DNA of 25,529 nt. It comes from a virus. Below are positions 1 to 25,529 of the stretch, piece by piece (position 1 is the stretch's first letter; the number at the start of each line of letters is the position of its first letter). The position numbers were made by a program, and so were the translations under genes. The stretch spans positions 1 to 25,529 of the IMG/VR virus record IMGVR_UViG_3300027791_000117; one strand, given 5' to 3'. Below the pieces are notes generated by a model. The model saw only the letters and a list, made by a program, of their open reading frames with translations, was not told the DNA's origin and searched no databases.

Positions 1-42
1 CTTAGTTGCCCAATTTGCTATTTGTTTTTCTATGTTTGACAT
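1..42 (-). CDS. Start of a small unknown gene, cut by the window edge
   Basis: Only the first 14 codons are present: an ATG at 42-40 followed by an open frame reading MSNIEKQIANWATK, which runs off the left edge. The start is supported by its leader: an AAAGGGAAAAT ribosome-binding stretch and an upstream promoter/operator unit identical to the one before the gene at 423-127. It is the second of two small genes with identical control regions, so the two are probably expressed at the same time. The product cannot be recognised from this fragment. Confidence 0.6.
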   Translation of the reverse strand, partial: MSNIEKQIANWATK

Positions 43-123
43 TTTATTTTCCCTTTGTTGTTGTTTTCTAACTATAACTTATATTAACACAGATACAGTA
101 TCTGTCAACCTTTTTGTGTGTTT
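40..123 (-). promoter_or_regulatory. Promoter, operator and leader, copy A
   Basis: Read on the minus strand, this has a consensus -35 TTGACA (108-103). A -10 follows, either TAATAT (86-81, 16-bp spacer) or TATAAG (83-78, 19-bp spacer). A perfect 17-bp palindrome with one central base, ACAGATACAGTATCTGT (89-105), overlaps the end of the -35 and fills most of the spacer. That is the usual place for a repressor operator. The leader ends in AAAGGGAAAAT just before the ATG at 42-40. All 84 bases are identical to 421-504. The regulator is not visible in this window. Confidence 0.7.
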
Positions 124-126
124 AGG

Positions 127-423
127 CTAATTTTCCATTAAGCCAAGATTAACTTGACAGGCAACACGATATTTCTTGTTCAAGACTTTCACTGTCAAAT
201 CTGTCAATTCTGACAACATTTCTAACAATGTAGTTTTTTCGCTAATCAAGCCAAGTGCTAATTTAACTTGTCCGCCACGAGTCCATTTACGACACGCTTT
301 CTTATATGCATGATTTATTTCTTTATAAGAAATGTGCTTACCAAACTCTCGCTTATAAAGTGCGTGTAACTCTGTTCGCAGTGTTGCGTTGTGAAGTTCA
401 AAAATTTCTGCTTTAAGTGCCAT
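127..423 (-). CDS. Small basic helical protein, unknown function
   Basis: This 98-residue protein is rich in Lys, Arg, Leu and Glu with no signal peptide or membrane segment, and looks mostly helical. The middle (about residues 30-55) is basic with an aromatic KKACRKWTRGG stretch, which could contact nucleic acid, but no named HTH or other domain is recognised. The ATG at 423-421 is preceded by AAAGGGAAAAT and a full promoter/operator unit (504-421). The next unit (123-40) begins three bases past its stop, so the gene is an independent, repressible cassette. Its small size, own promoter and place outside the late operon suggest an early or regulatory gene. The function is unknown. Confidence 0.7.
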   Translation of the reverse strand: MALKAEIFELHNATLRTELHALYKREFGKHISYKEINHAYKKACRKWTRGGQVKLALGLISEKTTLLEMLSELTDLTVKVLNKKYRVACQVNLGLMEN

Positions 424-504
424 TTTATTTTCCCTTTGTTGTTGTTTTCTAACTATAACTTATATTAACACAGATACAGTATCTGTCAACCTTTTTGTGT
501 GTTT
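421..504 (-). promoter_or_regulatory. Promoter, operator and leader, copy B
   Basis: This is an exact copy of the unit at 40-123. The -35 TTGACA lies at 489-484, the -10 is TAATAT (467-462) or TATAAG (464-459), and the 17-bp palindrome is at 470-486 between the promoter elements. It drives the 98-residue gene starting at 423. It lies directly downstream of the terminator hairpin at 510-555, so transcription is insulated from the candidate RNA upstream. Identity over the whole unit, including the non-coding leader, points to recent duplication or strong constraint. Confidence 0.7.
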
Positions 505-509
505 TGGAC

Positions 510-555
510 AAAGAAAAACCTCCTAGTAGCAAAAGGGATTAAGCACTAGGAGGTT
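510..555 (-). terminator. Strong intrinsic terminator
   Basis: On the minus strand a perfect 11-bp stem is formed by 555-545 (AACCTCCTAGT) and 527-517 (ACTAGGAGGTT), with a 17-nt loop. Two more G-C pairs are possible past a one-base bulge (543-544 with 529-530). The stem is followed by a U-rich run (UUUUUCUUUG in the RNA). It lies at the 3' end of the candidate RNA and upstream of the next promoter. The stem contains the CCUCCU/AGGAGG pair, so its 5' arm resembles the anti-Shine-Dalgarno sequence. Confidence 0.75.
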
Positions 556-697
556 AGTTTGTTATGTCAGCTTAGGAACTACTAGGAACCTATTCTGGGT
601 ACACAACACTTTTAGTTTATAAGAGTGGTAAAAAGGAAGTAAAACAAAATATGGCGGTTTTGTTTTTTCTTTGTTGTGTACAATACTATTTAGTATT
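510..697 (-). ncRNA. Candidate structured non-coding RNA, about 190 nt, undescribed
   Basis: The transcript would start near 697, seven bases after a perfect TTGACA-N17-TATAAT promoter, and end at the terminator at 555-510. No ATG occurs in the stretch. Seen stems: a 5' palindrome 697-691/688-682; a long-range 10-bp stem 681-672 (GTACACAACA) with 608-599; inside it a perfect 9-bp hairpin 666-658/649-641 with an 8-nt loop CCGCCATA; and a smaller hairpin 627-621/613-607 with one mismatch. Together these make a multibranch fold followed by the terminator. A second pairing, 587-579 with 529-521 (9 bp), competes with the terminator stem. It matches no RNA family known to me, and a long regulatory leader is the main alternative. 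Confidence 0.55.
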
Positions 698-702
698 CAA
701 CT

Positions 703-731
703 ATTATACTGTAAATATTCCCATTTGTCAA
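703..731 (-). promoter_or_regulatory. Perfect-consensus sigma70 promoter for the candidate RNA
   Basis: On the minus strand, TTGACA (731-726), a 17-bp spacer (725-709) and TATAAT (708-703) match the housekeeping consensus at all twelve positions. This is the strongest promoter in the window. It reads leftwards into a gene-free, structured stretch. A 16-bp palindrome AATACTATTTAGTATT (682-697) starts at the expected transcription start and could be an operator or the RNA's 5' hairpin. The flank AGAGCTTG before and at the -35, and CAGTATAAT at the -10, recur in the promoter at 25043-25071. Confidence 0.8.
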
Positions 732-750
732 GCTCTCCGTAAATACTGTT

Positions 751-990
751 ATGGATAGAATACTGTTTTTACAAAAATTAGATCAAGTGTGTGAATATAA
801 ATTTGAATTTGATGATAGACCCGTGGTAACACGAATATTCACAAAGCCGATGAGTTGCCCTGGTAGAGGATGCAGTCAAACTGTAACCACACAGAGAAAA
901 TGTTCAATTGTCAAACAAAAGGGATGGTGGAAAGAAATTTGCAATACTTGTAAAGTGAGAACCACTGAAACAACAGACTTTTCAAATTAG
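751..990 (+). CDS. Small Cys-rich protein, probable zinc-binding, only plus-strand gene
   Basis: This 79-residue protein has five cysteines in the arrangement C-x4-C (residues 36 and 41), a single C near residue 50, and C-x2-C (residues 64 and 67). That suggests a small zinc ribbon, and many such proteins bind nucleic acid or act as adaptors. No specific family is recognised. Codon use looks coding and no minus-strand frame competes over most of its length. It is the only convincing plus-strand gene in the window, ends tail-to-tail with the gene at 1250-987 (4-bp overlap), and diverges from the promoter at 731-703. No Shine-Dalgarno is seen. A possible plus-strand -10 TATACT lies at 705-710, without a good -35. 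Confidence 0.55.
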   Translation: MDRILFLQKLDQVCEYKFEFDDRPVVTRIFTKPMSCPGRGCSQTVTTQRKCSIVKQKGWWKEICNTCKVRTTETTDFSN

Positions 991-1250
991 AAAAACTGTT
1001 CCATGATGAGAAAACCTGACACTGTAACCAATACACCAATCAGCCAATCCTTTGCACTGTTCCAACGACGACTTTCACTGTAGCGGATTTTTTGTAGATC
1101 ATTGCGTATTTCAATCAACACTGTTTCCATTGAAGTGATTCGCTTGTCTAGTTGTTGTATGTGATCTGCCATGCGATCATAGCGTTCAGCACACAAATCA
1201 ACATGTGCTTCTAGGTTTGTTTTTTCAAGCCTACTACGCACCTGGGGCAT
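987..1250 (-). CDS. Coiled-coil protein with C-terminal membrane helix, XhlA/holin-accessory-like
   Basis: About 87 residues from the ATG at 1250, or 93 from the ATG at 1268. The first was chosen because GGGG lies just upstream of it. The protein has a polar helical N-terminal half with heptad-like spacing (about residues 10-55), a short basic patch (SESRRWN), then one hydrophobic segment near the C terminus (IGVLVTVSGFLIMEQFF). This order is that of XhlA-like small phage proteins, which sit at the inner membrane and assist host lysis. It is the last gene of the late operon, after the tail genes, where lysis functions are often found. No endolysin gene is seen nearby, so the lysis role is an inference. 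Confidence 0.6.
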   Translation of the reverse strand: MPQVRSRLEKTNLEAHVDLCAERYDRMADHIQQLDKRITSMETVLIEIRNDLQKIRYSESRRWNSAKDWLIGVLVTVSGFLIMEQFF

Positions 1251-1518
1251 CGAGACCCCAAGCCTCATAGTCTGTGGCTGGATCTGTTATTGAGTTTGTC
1301 CAGTCGTTTGTGTCTTGATTCCACACTGCCGTATAATACAGTGTGCGATATTCAGGTGCATGACACTGAGCATCTGTGCTATCTCTTGTTTGTGCTTGTG
1401 CATCAGCTTCTGGATTAGCACCAGTGCCTATGCTGGTAAACAGTTCGAGATCAATTTCCTTCCATTGATATCCAAAGTCAGTTCCGTCATTTGCTTTTAT
1501 TAATAATCTATACCACAT
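1234..1518 (-). CDS. Small late protein, possible tail or fibre accessory
   Basis: A 94-residue acidic protein rich in Asp, Thr, Trp and Tyr, with no signal or membrane segment. It starts with MWYRLLIKAND and looks mainly beta, with a W-x-E motif near residues 19-21 and a Trp/Tyr-rich second half. It follows the LamG-like gene by 11 bases and overlaps the start of the coiled-coil membrane gene, so it is part of the late operon. Its position after the fibre genes suggests a small virion or fibre-assembly protein. No family is recognised. Short plus-strand frames across it are shadows. Confidence 0.65.
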   Translation of the reverse strand: MWYRLLIKANDGTDFGYQWKEIDLELFTSIGTGANPEADAQAQTRDSTDAQCHAPEYRTLYYTAVWNQDTNDWTNSITDPATDYEAWGLDAPGA

Positions 1519-1529
1519 TTTGTTTTTCC

Positions 1530-2351
1530 CTAGCCTTGATCATTTGTAAATGAGGTACCGCCATTGCTGCCTTCCATGTGCAACAACATATCAGTATATT
1601 CATCAACTGTGAATGCCGCACTTGGTAATGTTGTAATATCACCTGTGTCATCGTATCTCCAGGTGTTACTAAAACAAACCTCATCAGTGTATATTGGCCC
1701 TGCTCCGTTACCACCATCAGCAGTTCCCCAATTGACATTTGTTCCTGCAGTACTACTGGCAAAGTTAAAAGTATCGCCTGTTAATGATGCGTGATTGATT
1801 CCGGCAACAGGTTTTAGAACACCATCTAGAAAGAATGACATGTTTGCATTCTTTCTTTGCATTACACAGAAATACCATTTGCCTGTTTGCCAGGTTGCAT
1901 CTCCTGATGATCCTGTTGAGATATCCCAATATTCCAAATCAGCATAACCTCTAGCAAATATGTTGATGTATTTGGCACTGGCTCCACTACCTAAACCACT
2001 GTTGTTGTATCTTCTTCCCAGTCTATAACCAAAACCTTGCGTGACATTTTGACTAGTCAAATCACAACTGGCACTGTGTCCAGCTAGAGTAGGAATATAC
2101 ATGTACCACTCAATGCAAAAGTCACCAGTTCCATAGTTCATAAAAGAGGGATTATTGGGAGTATAAATTTCAGTGCTATTGGTACTTGTATAGTAACTGC
2201 TTGAACCATATTTTGCATAGGTTGTGCTGGTAGTTGAACCTGAGTTTGCACCCCAAGTCATACCTGTATTGGTACTTGCGGCACCTTCTCTTCGGCCACC
2301 GCTGACCGCTGCCGGCTGTGCTAGGAAGCCACCTCTACTTGCAAACGGCAT
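1530..2351 (-). CDS. LamG/concanavalin-like tail protein, probable carbohydrate-binding adhesin
   Basis: The 273-residue protein starts at the ATG of a TAATG joint with the collagen gene. After a low-complexity Gly/Ser/Thr N terminus (residues 1-60), a jelly-roll domain fills residues about 65-260. Its marks are FCIEWYMYIPT, then WYFCVMQRKNANMSFFLDGV, the hydrophobic-strand and FLDG pattern of LamG-like domains, and later IYTDEVCFSNTWRY before a closing MLLHMEG. Such domains bind glycans or proteins and in phages often sit on fibres that contact the host. Translational coupling to the collagen fibre gene suggests the two act together at the tail tip. Substrate and exact position in the virion are unknown. 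Confidence 0.75.
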   Translation of the reverse strand: MPFASRGGFLAQPAAVSGGRREGAASTNTGMTWGANSGSTTSTTYAKYGSSSYYTSTNSTEIYTPNNPSFMNYGTGDFCIEWYMYIPTLAGHSASCDLTSQNVTQGFGYRLGRRYNNSGLGSGASAKYINIFARGYADLEYWDISTGSSGDATWQTGKWYFCVMQRKNANMSFFLDGVLKPVAGINHASLTGDTFNFASSTAGTNVNWGTADGGNGAGPIYTDEVCFSNTWRYDDTGDITTLPSAAFTVDEYTDMLLHMEGSNGGTSFTNDQG

Positions 2352-3739
2352 TATGCATATCCTAATGTTAAGCTGGCATAGTAATTGGTTCCATCATAGA
2401 ACACACTGATAACATCAATTGAACCTGCCGCAGTTGATAGCGTCTTGGTACCACCTGCAAACTTCATTGTTGAAGTTAACAGTCTTGATCCTGTGCCATC
2501 TTGTGTTACTAGCAATGTGAAACTGTTACCTGCAGTAATACCAGTGATTGCTGAGAATGTTAAATCGCCATTCAGTGTGATACTTTGTATACTGCCGTTG
2601 CCAATAGTAGGTGTAATTGCACCCGATGTTGTGCCAATTGCATATACCACTTCCTTGAATGTGGTTAGTTTAGCTTTCTCAAGATTGACTACACCACTTC
2701 CGTTTGGAATAATATCAATGTCGCCATTGCTGGCACTTAGTATATCAAATCCGTTTACATCTAGGTTCTGTGTTAGTGTTCCGCCAAATGTTCCAGTTGC
2801 TCCAGTTGGACCTGTTGCGCCTTGAATACCAGCTGGGCCTGTATCGCCTTGTCCACCTTGTGCACCAGCAGGTCCAGTTGCACCTGTAATGCCCTGTATA
2901 CCTTGTGGTCCTGTGTTACCAATGCCACCTGTTGATCCAGTAGGTCCAGTTGCACCCTGTATACCTTCACTGCCCTGTGCTCCAGTTGGTCCTGTTGCAC
3001 CCTGCGTTCCAGTATTACCTGTTGGTCCTGTAGCACCTTGTGTGCCCTGTATACCCTGTGGTCCTGTGTTACCAATTCCGCCAGTTGATCCTGTAGGGCC
3101 AGTAGCTCCTTGAATACCAGTAGGTCCTGTGTTACCAATGCCACCTGTTGAACCAGTTGGTCCTGTTGCACCTTGTGTGCCAGTGCCTGTTGGCCCTGTG
3201 TTACCAATGCCACCTGTTGATCCTGTTGGTCCTGTTGGGCCTTCAGGTCCTGTGTTACCTACGCCTAATGGGCCAGTAGCACCTTGTATTCCGGTAGGTC
3301 CAGTTGGTCCAGTTGAACCAGATCCTTGTGGACCAGTGTTTCCTTCAGCGCCTTGTGCTCCTGTAGGTCCAGTGGCACCTTGTGTTCCTGTACCACCTGT
3401 TGGACCAGTTGGTCCTGTGTTGCCAACTCCTTGTGGTCCAGTTGAACCTTGAGATCCAGTTGGACCTGTTGAACCTTGTGGCCCTGCAGGTCCAGTAGCT
3501 CCTGAACTTCCTGTTGATCCTGTTGGTCCAGTATCGCCTGATGGTCCTGCTGGTCCTGTGTTTCCTGTTGGTCCTGTGTCGCCTTTTGCCGCAGCCGCTC
3601 CACTTGGTCCTGTTGGCCCTTGTGGGCCTGTTGCTCCGAGTGGCCCTTGTGGGCCTGTATCTCCGTTTTCGCCTTGTATAACAACTGCTTCAGTTGATAT
3701 AGTAATATTGGCACTTGATCCTGATATTGTTGCACTCAT
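2351..3739 (-). CDS. Collagen-like tail fibre protein
   Basis: This 462-residue protein has three parts. Residues 1-23 are a short beta-rich anchor. Residues about 24-316 are Gly-X-Y triplets dominated by GPT, GAT, GPQ and GNT, which should form a trimeric collagen-like shaft. Residues about 317-462 are a globular C-terminal domain ([18 protein letters not shown], later [18 protein letters not shown]) like the tips of many phage fibres. The triplet register is broken by GAAAAK near residue 47 and by several two-residue steps such as GVG, GSG and GTG. The start ATG overlaps the previous stop as ATGA. The C-terminal half probably trimerises the fibre or binds the host. Confidence 0.9.
2791..3672 (-). 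repeat. Gly-X-Y coding repeat tract of the collagen-like fibre
   Basis: This tract encodes nearly 100 collagen-type triplets. Blocks recur at the DNA level, notably one encoding [14 protein letters not shown], which appears four times in close succession. The tract therefore resembles a tandem array that can expand or shrink by slippage or recombination. Mirror open frames on the plus strand, rich in Val, Gly and Pro, are by-products of the repeat and are not genes. Confidence 0.85.
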
Positions 3740-4477: not shown

Positions 4478-6249
4478 TAGTCTCTCACAAGCTCCCAGTT
4501 TATTGTACAATCGCTAGTTCCAGCAAATGTGGTAAAATTATTCAAAAATATCTCGTTCGCTGGTACTGCGCCACCACCAACAGGAGCAGTTCTTCCAGTA
4601 TAGTTCATATTCAAATCTAAAGTTTGTATAATTTGTAACGCCACATAATATGTACCAGCAGATGGATTTGGCAAGGATAGTTTCACATAGTTACTGGTCC
4701 AGTCAACAGTTGCTTGTGTTACTATTGTACTAGATGCCAGTGTTGCACCAATTCGAAGACTAACATTAAATGCTGGTTGTAAAGCCTGTGCAGGGGCAGT
4801 GATAACTGATCCAGTGTGGTCAACATATTTCCATTGAGCAGTCACTGTCGGTGTTTCTATGTTGGCACTGATTGCAGTGTAACCTGCGGGTATTGTAGTA
4901 CTGGTGGATATTTGCTTGGTAACATCGTTGGTATTGTTTCCATCGTAAACCAAATCACTGTTACTACCAGCACTCATAGCCGCCAATTGTGTGCCCACAG
5001 TTGATGCAGAGATTGTGGTAAACACATTGTCAACTTCACTCAAACCAGTTAATGATTTACCACCAGTTGCAGTACCAAAGGTTGTTTCAAACTCTTTGAA
5101 CAATCCTGGTGTGCCAGTGTATGCGTTATTGCCACTTTCATTGTCGTCTATAAGTCCTTTGAGAATTGCCATCAATCCATTTGCGGCAGTCAATCCCAAT
5201 AGACTACTACCAGTGTTGTCAACAACATCTGTAACAGTACCAATGGCATCAGTTTGTTGTTGTGGTACAAATGCAAGCAATGTACTTGCTGGTGAAAATG
5301 GTCCAGTTGTGGTTGAGTTCATGCCTCTTGTCTTTACATAAACATTTTGTCCATCCAGTCTATCAAAGTCTGTGGTTACAGTTGTGCCTGGAGGAAAGTT
5401 ACCTCCACCTACAGGAAACTCTTCTGCTACCTGTGAATAGCTTGTGCCATCACTGCTGATCCAAAACTCCATGCTTTCAACTAGTCCACTTGGTACTGTG
5501 GTTTCAATGCTTAGTCTTGGTCTTGCAACCAATTTGAAATCAGTTACCTGTGGTTGTACTGGTGTGCCAATAGCACCTGCGGCTCTAATACCATTTCTGT
5601 CTGATCTAACAAATCTGTTTAGGTTTGATGTATCATACACCAATGGATCATACTGTTGAGCAGTTATTGAATATGTGATTGCACCATCTTCTACTCTTTC
5701 AATGGTAATAACTCTAAACAGTTTTGAACTCCAACCATAAGGTGTGTTTGTAATACCAACAACATTACCTGGATTGATATCTGAAGCAGTCCAATCTGTT
5801 TGAAAGGTAACAATCAAGTCTGCTCTACTCTGTTTAAGTTCTTGTAGTGCAATTATTTCTGCTTGAACAGGTTCATTGCACTGTGCCAACTGTATTACCA
5901 GTTCATTGTCTGGTTCATTTGGATTTCTATCTGAAGCACTCAATGCCACTCTAACAAAGTCAACTTCATCAGCAGTGTCTCTAAGTGGAAACTCCACCAT
6001 TACACTATTGTACATTTCATCTAGTCCTGAACCATTTACGCTTATTCCGCCAATGATGTCTGAGTCTGTGAATGTTCTTGTGGTTGTTTCTGTTTTCAGT
6101 ATTACCACATTCCATTTGCCTTCGGTTGCATCAAAGCTGATCAAACTGCCAGCAGTTGTGGCAAGTGTTTCCATGTTGGCAAGAACATTGTTGTTGGTAT
6201 CAACCAATCCGTTGATTTGATACCTATTTGGTAGTGTTGTGGTTGTCAT
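4477..6249 (-). CDS. C-terminal part of a split J-like central tail hub protein
   Basis: A 590-residue protein from the ATG at 6249, in a TAATG joint with GAGGA upstream. The longer open frame to 6294 has no such support. Residues 1-215 match the second half of the lambda J/tip-attachment hub core: an INGLVDTNNNVLANMETLA helix, YNSVMVEFP, a long EPVQAEIIALQELKQSRAD helix, the domain with GNVVGITNTPYGWSSKLFRV, and YDPLVYDT. A fibronectin-like domain covers about 235-331 and a beta-rich C-terminal region follows. J-type proteins form the baseplate hub and bind the host receptor. The matching N-terminal half is a separate gene at 9958-9164, with two other genes in between. Confidence 0.75.
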   Translation of the reverse strand: MTTTTLPNRYQINGLVDTNNNVLANMETLATTAGSLISFDATEGKWNVVILKTETTTRTFTDSDIIGGISVNGSGLDEMYNSVMVEFPLRDTADEVDFVRVALSASDRNPNEPDNELVIQLAQCNEPVQAEIIALQELKQSRADLIVTFQTDWTASDINPGNVVGITNTPYGWSSKLFRVITIERVEDGAITYSITAQQYDPLVYDTSNLNRFVRSDRNGIRAAGAIGTPVQPQVTDFKLVARPRLSIETTVPSGLVESMEFWISSDGTSYSQVAEEFPVGGGNFPPGTTVTTDFDRLDGQNVYVKTRGMNSTTTGPFSPASTLLAFVPQQQTDAIGTVTDVVDNTGSSLLGLTAANGLMAILKGLIDDNESGNNAYTGTPGLFKEFETTFGTATGGKSLTGLSEVDNVFTTISASTVGTQLAAMSAGSNSDLVYDGNNTNDVTKQISTSTTIPAGYTAISANIETPTVTAQWKYVDHTGSVITAPAQALQPAFNVSLRIGATLASSTIVTQATVDWTSNYVKLSLPNPSAGTYYVALQIIQTLDLNMNYTGRTAPVGGGAVPANEIFLNNFTTFAGTSDCTINWELVRD

Positions 6250-24247: not shown

Positions 24248-24296
24248 TGTAGTCTCCCTTTTGTTAGTTTTATTTATGGTATAGATTTGTTTCTGT

Positions 24297-25010: not shown

Positions 25011-25042
25011 GTTGTATTTTCCCTTTGTTAAACTTATATATC

Positions 25043-25094: not shown

Positions 25095-25529
25095 TCATGA
25101 AAGTATTTTTATTATTACTGCCGGAGCAACGCAGTACAAGTATTCATACTTGATATTATTCTCTTTAACAAATTCATGCCATGCACCAAACTGTGATTTA
25201 CCACGGAACTTATATTCATTAAAGTAATCATCTAATGCTATTACAGTATCAGTTACAATATGTGATTTAATATTGTCAAGTACACATACAGTGGCATTAT
25301 AATTATCGCAGTCTATGTTAACAAACCGTGCTGGCAACCTACCATAGTCAAAGTCGGGAAGTGTCTCATCAAACCAACCTTTTATAATACGACCATTGCA
25401 GGGAACTGAGAATGGAATGTCACCTCCATTCTGAAACTGATCTTGATGTTCTATTCCGCCACGCCATTTGCCATTGTCTGCTAATCCTTCAAATGCATCA
25501 AATCCATATACTGGTTGATCAGCAAGTTC
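25095..25529 (-). CDS. TylF/MycF-like O-methyltransferase, 3' part only
   Basis: The frame is open from the right edge to TGA at 25097-25095, giving the last 144 residues. The N terminus lies outside the window. An internal TTG (25337) can mimic a start but is not one. Visible family marks are VYGFDAFEGLADNGKWRGG, GRIIKGWFDETLPDF, PARFVNIDCDNYNATVCVLD, then TVIALDDYFN. The GWFxETLP, HIDCDxYxxT-like and DDYFN motifs are typical of TylF-like enzymes, which use SAM and usually a metal ion to methylate sugar hydroxyls. The metal-ligand Asp residues are present. Together with the GT4 and the second methyltransferase, it suggests a methylated sugar product. Confidence 0.85.
   Translation of the reverse strand, partial: ELADQPVYGFDAFEGLADNGKWRGGIEHQDQFQNGGDIPFSVPCNGRIIKGWFDETLPDFDYGRLPARFVNIDCDNYNATVCVLDNIKSHIVTDTVIALDDYFNEYKFRGKSQFGAWHEFVKENNIKYEYLYCVAPAVIIKILS

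Follow-up and report, generated by a model that had tools for sequence, protein, structure and literature searches.

A phage RNA of conserved structure, putatively a base-pairing small RNA directed at a neighboring gene block

What is made from the strong promoter that, near the left end of this phage genome, reads on the minus strand into about 190 bases and stops at a terminator? An earlier note had read this locus as a stand-alone regulatory RNA, with an unusual leader or an anti-termination element as alternatives. We asked whether the predicted structure is kept in related phages, whether the RNA is a unit of its own, and what its conserved loops could bind.

The window, i.e., the whole stretch of 25,529 nucleotides that was analyzed, is a 25.5-kb IMG/VR record. 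The record is circularly permuted, and the full genome has a size of about 27 kb, because a near-identical contig (L026, IMGVR_UViG_3300031637_000532) joins the right end of the window (25097-25529) about 1.4 kb before the left end (position 1) and supplies the missing ~1.4 kb. L026 carries the RNA unchanged; the two differences in 351 bases are both located 3' of the terminator. It encodes a module of portal, terminase, capsid, and tape-measure proteins. The portal protein is 44% identical to that of Phage DSL-LC06 and about 40% identical to those of the Pelagibacter phages HTVC026P, 111P, 112P, and 202P. On these sequence grounds, the phage is a distant relative of the SAR11 (Pelagibacter) phages. 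The locus is arranged in the order tail module, RNA with an adjoining divergent protein with paired cysteines, and block of small genes. Its elements are as follows.

751-990, plus strand: divergent 79-aa protein with paired Cys, probably a zinc ribbon; marks the locus by synteny in relatives
703-731, minus strand: consensus sigma-70 promoter of the RNA, TTGACA-N17-TATAAT; also perfect in relative G002 (L063:2243-2271)
682-697, minus strand: 5' palindrome AATACTaaatAGTATT at the transcript start; identical core in G002, absent in relative L101
672-681, minus strand: 5' arm of the long-range stem P1 (GUACACAACA); compensatory pairs in relatives
599-608, minus strand: 3' arm of P1 (UGUUGUGUAC); compensatory pairs in relatives
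641-666, minus strand: P2 hairpin, 9 bp, loop CCGCCAUA, with GCCAU at 655-651 in the loop
558-600, minus strand: weak P3 stem with conserved UAGUAGUUC (584-576), followed by conserved single-stranded CAUAACAAA (566-558)
510-555, minus strand: intrinsic terminator with an unusually large loop containing UCCCUUU (538-532), a motif kept in the three close homologues
462-489, minus strand: separate promoter of the downstream gene, TTGACA-N16-TAATAT, with palindrome ACAGATACTGTATCTGT, directly after the terminator

The promoter was confirmed: it is the sole 12/12 match within positions 1-3000 of the window, and the minus strand is free of ATG from 697 to 510. The palindrome (697-682), the 10-bp stem (681-672/608-599), the hairpin at 666-641 (loop CCGCCATA), and the terminator were all found again where the earlier note had placed them. 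A smaller hairpin at 627-607 could not be upheld, as its bases run into the 3' arm of P1 and neither of the two competing structures described below contains it. Two features had been overlooked, namely a small stem, P3 (about 600-570), and the UCCCUUU motif that is conserved in the large loop of the terminator. The stem of the terminator is formed by 555-545 and 529-518 and is followed by a U-rich tail (517-510). The 5' palindrome may be either a hairpin or a repressor operator. As a side observation, the consensus promoters of this phage group carry TAAATA about 10-16 bases past TATAAT (window 731-682, L063:2243, L079:13046, L174:5733, L084:11872), and TAAATA is an initial-transcribed-region motif of these promoters.

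The ~190-nt RNA folds at -48.6 kcal/mol, compared with -29.0 ± 3.4 for 200 dinucleotide shuffles (z = -5.8; 0/200 as good). For the full-length RNA, the minimum-energy structure (-48.1) is devoid of P1 and practically equal to a P1-containing structure (-47.8); the pairing that rivals P1 is between the AACAAAG strand and the U-rich tail. P1 is present in the best fold of every tested 100-150-nt prefix ending before the terminator and should therefore form first during RNA synthesis. In the structure ensemble, GCCAU is 92-100% unpaired and UCCCUUU 79-88%.

Besides L026, three relatives carry the RNA, and each adjoins the same tail-end gene and Cys protein. G002 (IMGVR_UViG_3300018041_000158; L063:2243-2515) was found by DNA search; its similarity is 79% at the 5' end and 89% in the terminator. 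L101 (= G029, IMGVR_UViG_3300020185_004040; 5529-5716), which has the same neighbors, was found via a search with the tail-end gene. The more distant L084 (G017) has P1, a P2 with GCCAU in the loop, and a terminator at the same syntenic place; the UCCCUUU terminator loop and the linker are missing. Fold z-scores are -6.0 for G002, -4.0 for L101, and -4.2 for L084. Because the stems share no sequence, the four members could not be aligned with MAFFT/RNAalifold, and we compared them by a structural alignment made by hand and by a motif scan. The comparison rests on few sequences, namely three close members, the near-identical L026, and one distant member.

In this alignment, P1 has a length of 10-12 bp in all four members. 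Between the window and G002, its pairs 9 and 10 are fully compensatory (C-G to A-U and A-U to G-C), and in L101 and L084, the pairs differ nearly throughout. The P2 stems are AACAAAA/UUUUGUU, UUUACA/UGUAAA, AAGAAU/AUUCUU, and UCUAAUC/GAUUAGA, i.e., the sequence is replaced each time and the pairing is always perfect. The terminator stem covaries as well, with U-A pairs in the window replaced by C-G in G002. The loop motifs remain constant: GCCAU stands in the P2 loop of 4/4 members, and UAGUAGUUC and CAUAACAAA (after P1) as well as UCCCUUU (large terminator loop) are kept in the three closest. The earlier note had named compensatory changes among homologues as one check on its reading, and P1, P2, and the terminator stem do change in pairs. 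Conservation of the secondary structure through compensatory changes is well supported by these sequences.

A scan of about 1.8 Mb of fetched loci for P1, a GCCAU hairpin, and a terminator returned the three homologues and one weaker match. Tolerating a single mismatch in P1 brought in L084, at the corresponding syntenic position, along with weaker scattered matches with poorer P1 and/or P2. Permuted 5-mers in place of GCCAU gave mostly 0-5 matches. Large CCCTTT terminator loops near a U run occurred only in the three close phages and one unrelated contig, L012. The tail-module loci of L079 and L174, with GCCA near a terminator, were considered as members and rejected (L079 folds without the GCCA hairpin; L174 folds weakly, z = -1.7). 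Phage DSL-LC06 has the Cys protein and is devoid of the RNA. The 79-aa protein with two Cys pairs belongs to a family with members at this locus in G002, L101, L084, L079, L174, and Phage DSL-LC06, and its strand relative to the tail genes flips among phages. A Pfam scan of the Cys proteins of the window, G002, and L084 gave no match at the curated cut-off.

Searches for known RNAs were negative. No Rfam release 15 family reached the gathering threshold in the loci of the window, G002, L101, L084, L079, and L174; relaxed Rfam searches gave sub-threshold, chance-level matches only, and ARAGORN found no tRNA or tmRNA. DNA similarity of the RNA to deposited phages was nil for the window and L101 and limited to AT-rich chance pieces for G002, and the deposited phage and cellular genomes searched did not contain the RNA. 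Other matches to AAACCGCCATATTTTG in IMG/VR were due to chance and lay within unrelated sequence. Scans of viral and cellular genomes with the linker motifs gave chance matches and no new members, and the terminator pattern had no match in cellular genome contigs.

As expected of a stand-alone phage regulatory RNA, the RNA has its own promoter and terminator and no conserved ORF. Moreover, in the three closest members, a separate consensus promoter for the next gene is located directly past the terminator (window 489-462, G002 L063:2513-2540, L101 5904-5932). With a terminator at its end and a separately promoted gene behind it in these three, a stand-alone unit, as the earlier note had proposed, is favored over a leader. 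That the RNA is instead a leader or an attenuator/anti-termination element controlling the downstream gene is very unlikely, although the terminator lies just before same-strand genes and an alternative shorter terminator hairpin using CCCUUU can form in G002 and L101. A leader or attenuator would place a terminator before an mRNA without another promoter; separate promoters were found in the window, G002, and L101. Attenuation in the window was rejected, as the alternative short hairpin was not found there.

A long transcript from the other side is also to be weighed. In every member, the tail genes precede the RNA and share its strand. No recognizable sigma-70 promoter was found upstream of the RNA in L101, and no consensus promoter directly before it in L084; the terminator is present in both. 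The absence in L101 suggests that some relatives may use a different promoter or process a longer late transcript. The RNA could thus be the 3' end of the late (tail) operon, comprising its 3' UTR and terminator, from which a small RNA might be processed; the upstream promoter would then play an auxiliary role only. We consider this unlikely, since the 5' end of the conserved block coincides exactly with a perfect consensus promoter in the window and G002, and the loop motifs exceed the needs of a terminator. Least probable of all is a DNA element, i.e., an origin of replication, a packaging site, or a binding site for a repressor, with inverted repeats that are not transcribed. The palindrome at 697-682 and those in the two following promoters do look like operators, but this reading is at odds with compensatory stem changes around constant loops, the promoter-to-terminator order, and the U-rich tail.

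These two following promoters are part of a cassette of about 90 bp with promoter and ribosome-binding site, which is duplicated (98% identical) before two genes (window 37-126 and 418-507). A perfect palindrome, ACAGATACTGTATCTGT, lies between its -35 and -10 elements and looks like a repressor operator. The 5' palindrome of the RNA shares the half-site ATACT with it.

What could the loops bind? UCCCUUU is complementary to AAAGGGA and GCCAU to AUGGC starts. The following putative target sites were identified in the window.

431-437, minus strand: AAAGGGA, Shine-Dalgarno sequence of the 98-aa gene 423-127 (start context ATGGC)
50-56, minus strand: AAAGGGA, Shine-Dalgarno sequence of the following gene, which encodes 96 aa and is complete in L026:1616-1906
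24253-24263, minus strand: CAAAAGGGA, Shine-Dalgarno sequence of gene 24247-23852; perfectly complementary to the terminator loop over 9 nt
25020-25026, minus strand: AAAGGGA, Shine-Dalgarno sequence of gene 25010-24297

AAAGGGA occurs five times on the coding strand of the window, and four of these sites are Shine-Dalgarno sequences of genes in the block after the RNA. L026 adds a fifth such gene in the genome part absent from the window. AAAGGGA thus serves 5/8 genes of this block vs 0/27 others (p = 1.7e-4, for a split chosen after the sites had been seen, and with 2/5 sites in the duplicated promoter cassette). The tail, head, and packaging genes mostly have ribosome-binding sites of the AGGA/GGAG type. 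After the RNA, two genes of G002 and three of G029 have an AAAGGGA ribosome-binding site, and G029 has one elsewhere. The loop is complementary to sites in its own genome over 7-9 nt in the window, 7-8 nt in G002, and 7-11 nt in G029. Shuffled terminator loops equaled the real number of sites in 49 (window), 80 (G002), and 10 (G029) of 5000 trials. When binding was averaged over all translation starts, the terminator loop was no better than shuffles (74/300), and our claim is therefore limited to a specific gene set, not all phage mRNAs. The P2 loop was modestly better in the same comparison (11/300), and AUGGC begins about 10 of the 35 listed genes. Complementarity of UAGUAGUUC and CAUAACAAA to phage starts did not exceed shuffles. 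A conserved unpaired seed complementary to mRNA start regions is expected of an antisense sRNA, and UCCCUUU with AAAGGGA would be such a seed and site. Separately, CAAAAGGGAT at 914-923 (plus strand), in the coding region of the Cys protein, is a 10-nt perfect complement of the terminator loop.

The preferred reading, to which we give about an even chance, is a stand-alone phage base-pairing sRNA of ~190 nt whose loops would seed on the ribosome-binding sites of the downstream block and lower translation. The strong sigma-70 promoter would start the RNA near 697. The transcript would fold into a 5' hairpin, P1 presenting P2 with its GCCAU loop, a linker bearing the conserved single-stranded motifs, and a terminator with UCCCUUU displayed in its large loop; the exposed loops would be the seeds. 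UCCCUUU would pair with the AAAGGGA sites common to the genes just downstream, which are probably early, and GCCAU would add contacts at AUGGC start codons. Such pairing would block ribosome entry and reduce translation of the block. Transcription and stability of the RNA, loop-target pairing, repression, and timing during infection are what we infer here. A more far-reaching version is possible but doubtful: the block would have a private AAAGGGA Shine-Dalgarno type, read together with AUGGC by a two-seed RNA (UCCCUUU, GCCAU), so that a single RNA would stop, or set the timing of, translation throughout the block at once.

We consider it somewhat unlikely that the stand-alone structured RNA acts via a protein of the phage or host, which it would bind or titrate, or pairs with host mRNAs and not with the phage's own ribosome-binding sites. 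The conserved UAGUAGUUC and CAUAACAAA, which do not match phage starts beyond shuffles, are consistent with this; GCCAU would match any AUGGC start, including those of the host, and L084 retains GCCAU and not UCCCUUU. Left unexplained would be why three phages keep in the terminator loop an exact complement of the neighboring block's ribosome-binding site.

Among known systems, LhrC of Listeria is, by analogy only, functionally the closest to the base-pairing sRNA proposed here. In LhrC, UCCC motifs in loop A and the terminator loop bind Shine-Dalgarno sequences (PMC4132741). The LhrC family (Rfam RF00616) shares with the phage RNA CU-rich UCCC..UUUU motifs in hairpin and terminator loops that are complementary to Shine-Dalgarno regions (PMC4132741), but it is chromosomal and multicopy in Listeria, whereas the phage RNA comes from a phage genome. 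Membership in RF00616 was rejected (18.7 bits vs a gathering threshold of 110; E 4.6, chance level). Phage-encoded trans-acting sRNAs are established with VpdS of VP882 and PreS of lambda (review PMC12197685). These are likewise small non-coding RNAs from phage genomes and act on phage and/or host mRNAs. They belong to other phages, have no sequence match to our RNA, and reportedly target host mRNAs/sRNAs and phage mRNAs through Hfq, whereas the target proposed here is a block of the phage's own starts. The RNA family is thus new and of a known kind (phage sRNA), with an unusual proposed target set.

The relatives hold a second non-coding region of about 600 nt, which is conserved in three phages (L079:13075-13640, L063:3560-4250, L101:6690-7360, all plus strand; 78% over 184 nt) with a shared GGAACCUU..AGGUUCCGU hairpin. 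In L063 and L101, it lies just upstream of a MAKFGYQSIRE-type gene, and in L079, it has its own TTGACA-N17-TATAAT. It has no Rfam, tRNA, or tmRNA match and was not found in the window. It may be another large structured RNA of these phages, distinct from the one above.

Regulatory RNAs of marine phages have received little attention, and a full-text literature search for pelagiphages and small RNA found no study of one. The RNA described here might serve the phage as an internal switch of its protein production. Its loops, which match the ribosome-binding sites of a gene block, provide a concrete, testable model of how a phage with a very small genome (~27 kb) and few recognizable regulators could time expression post-transcriptionally.
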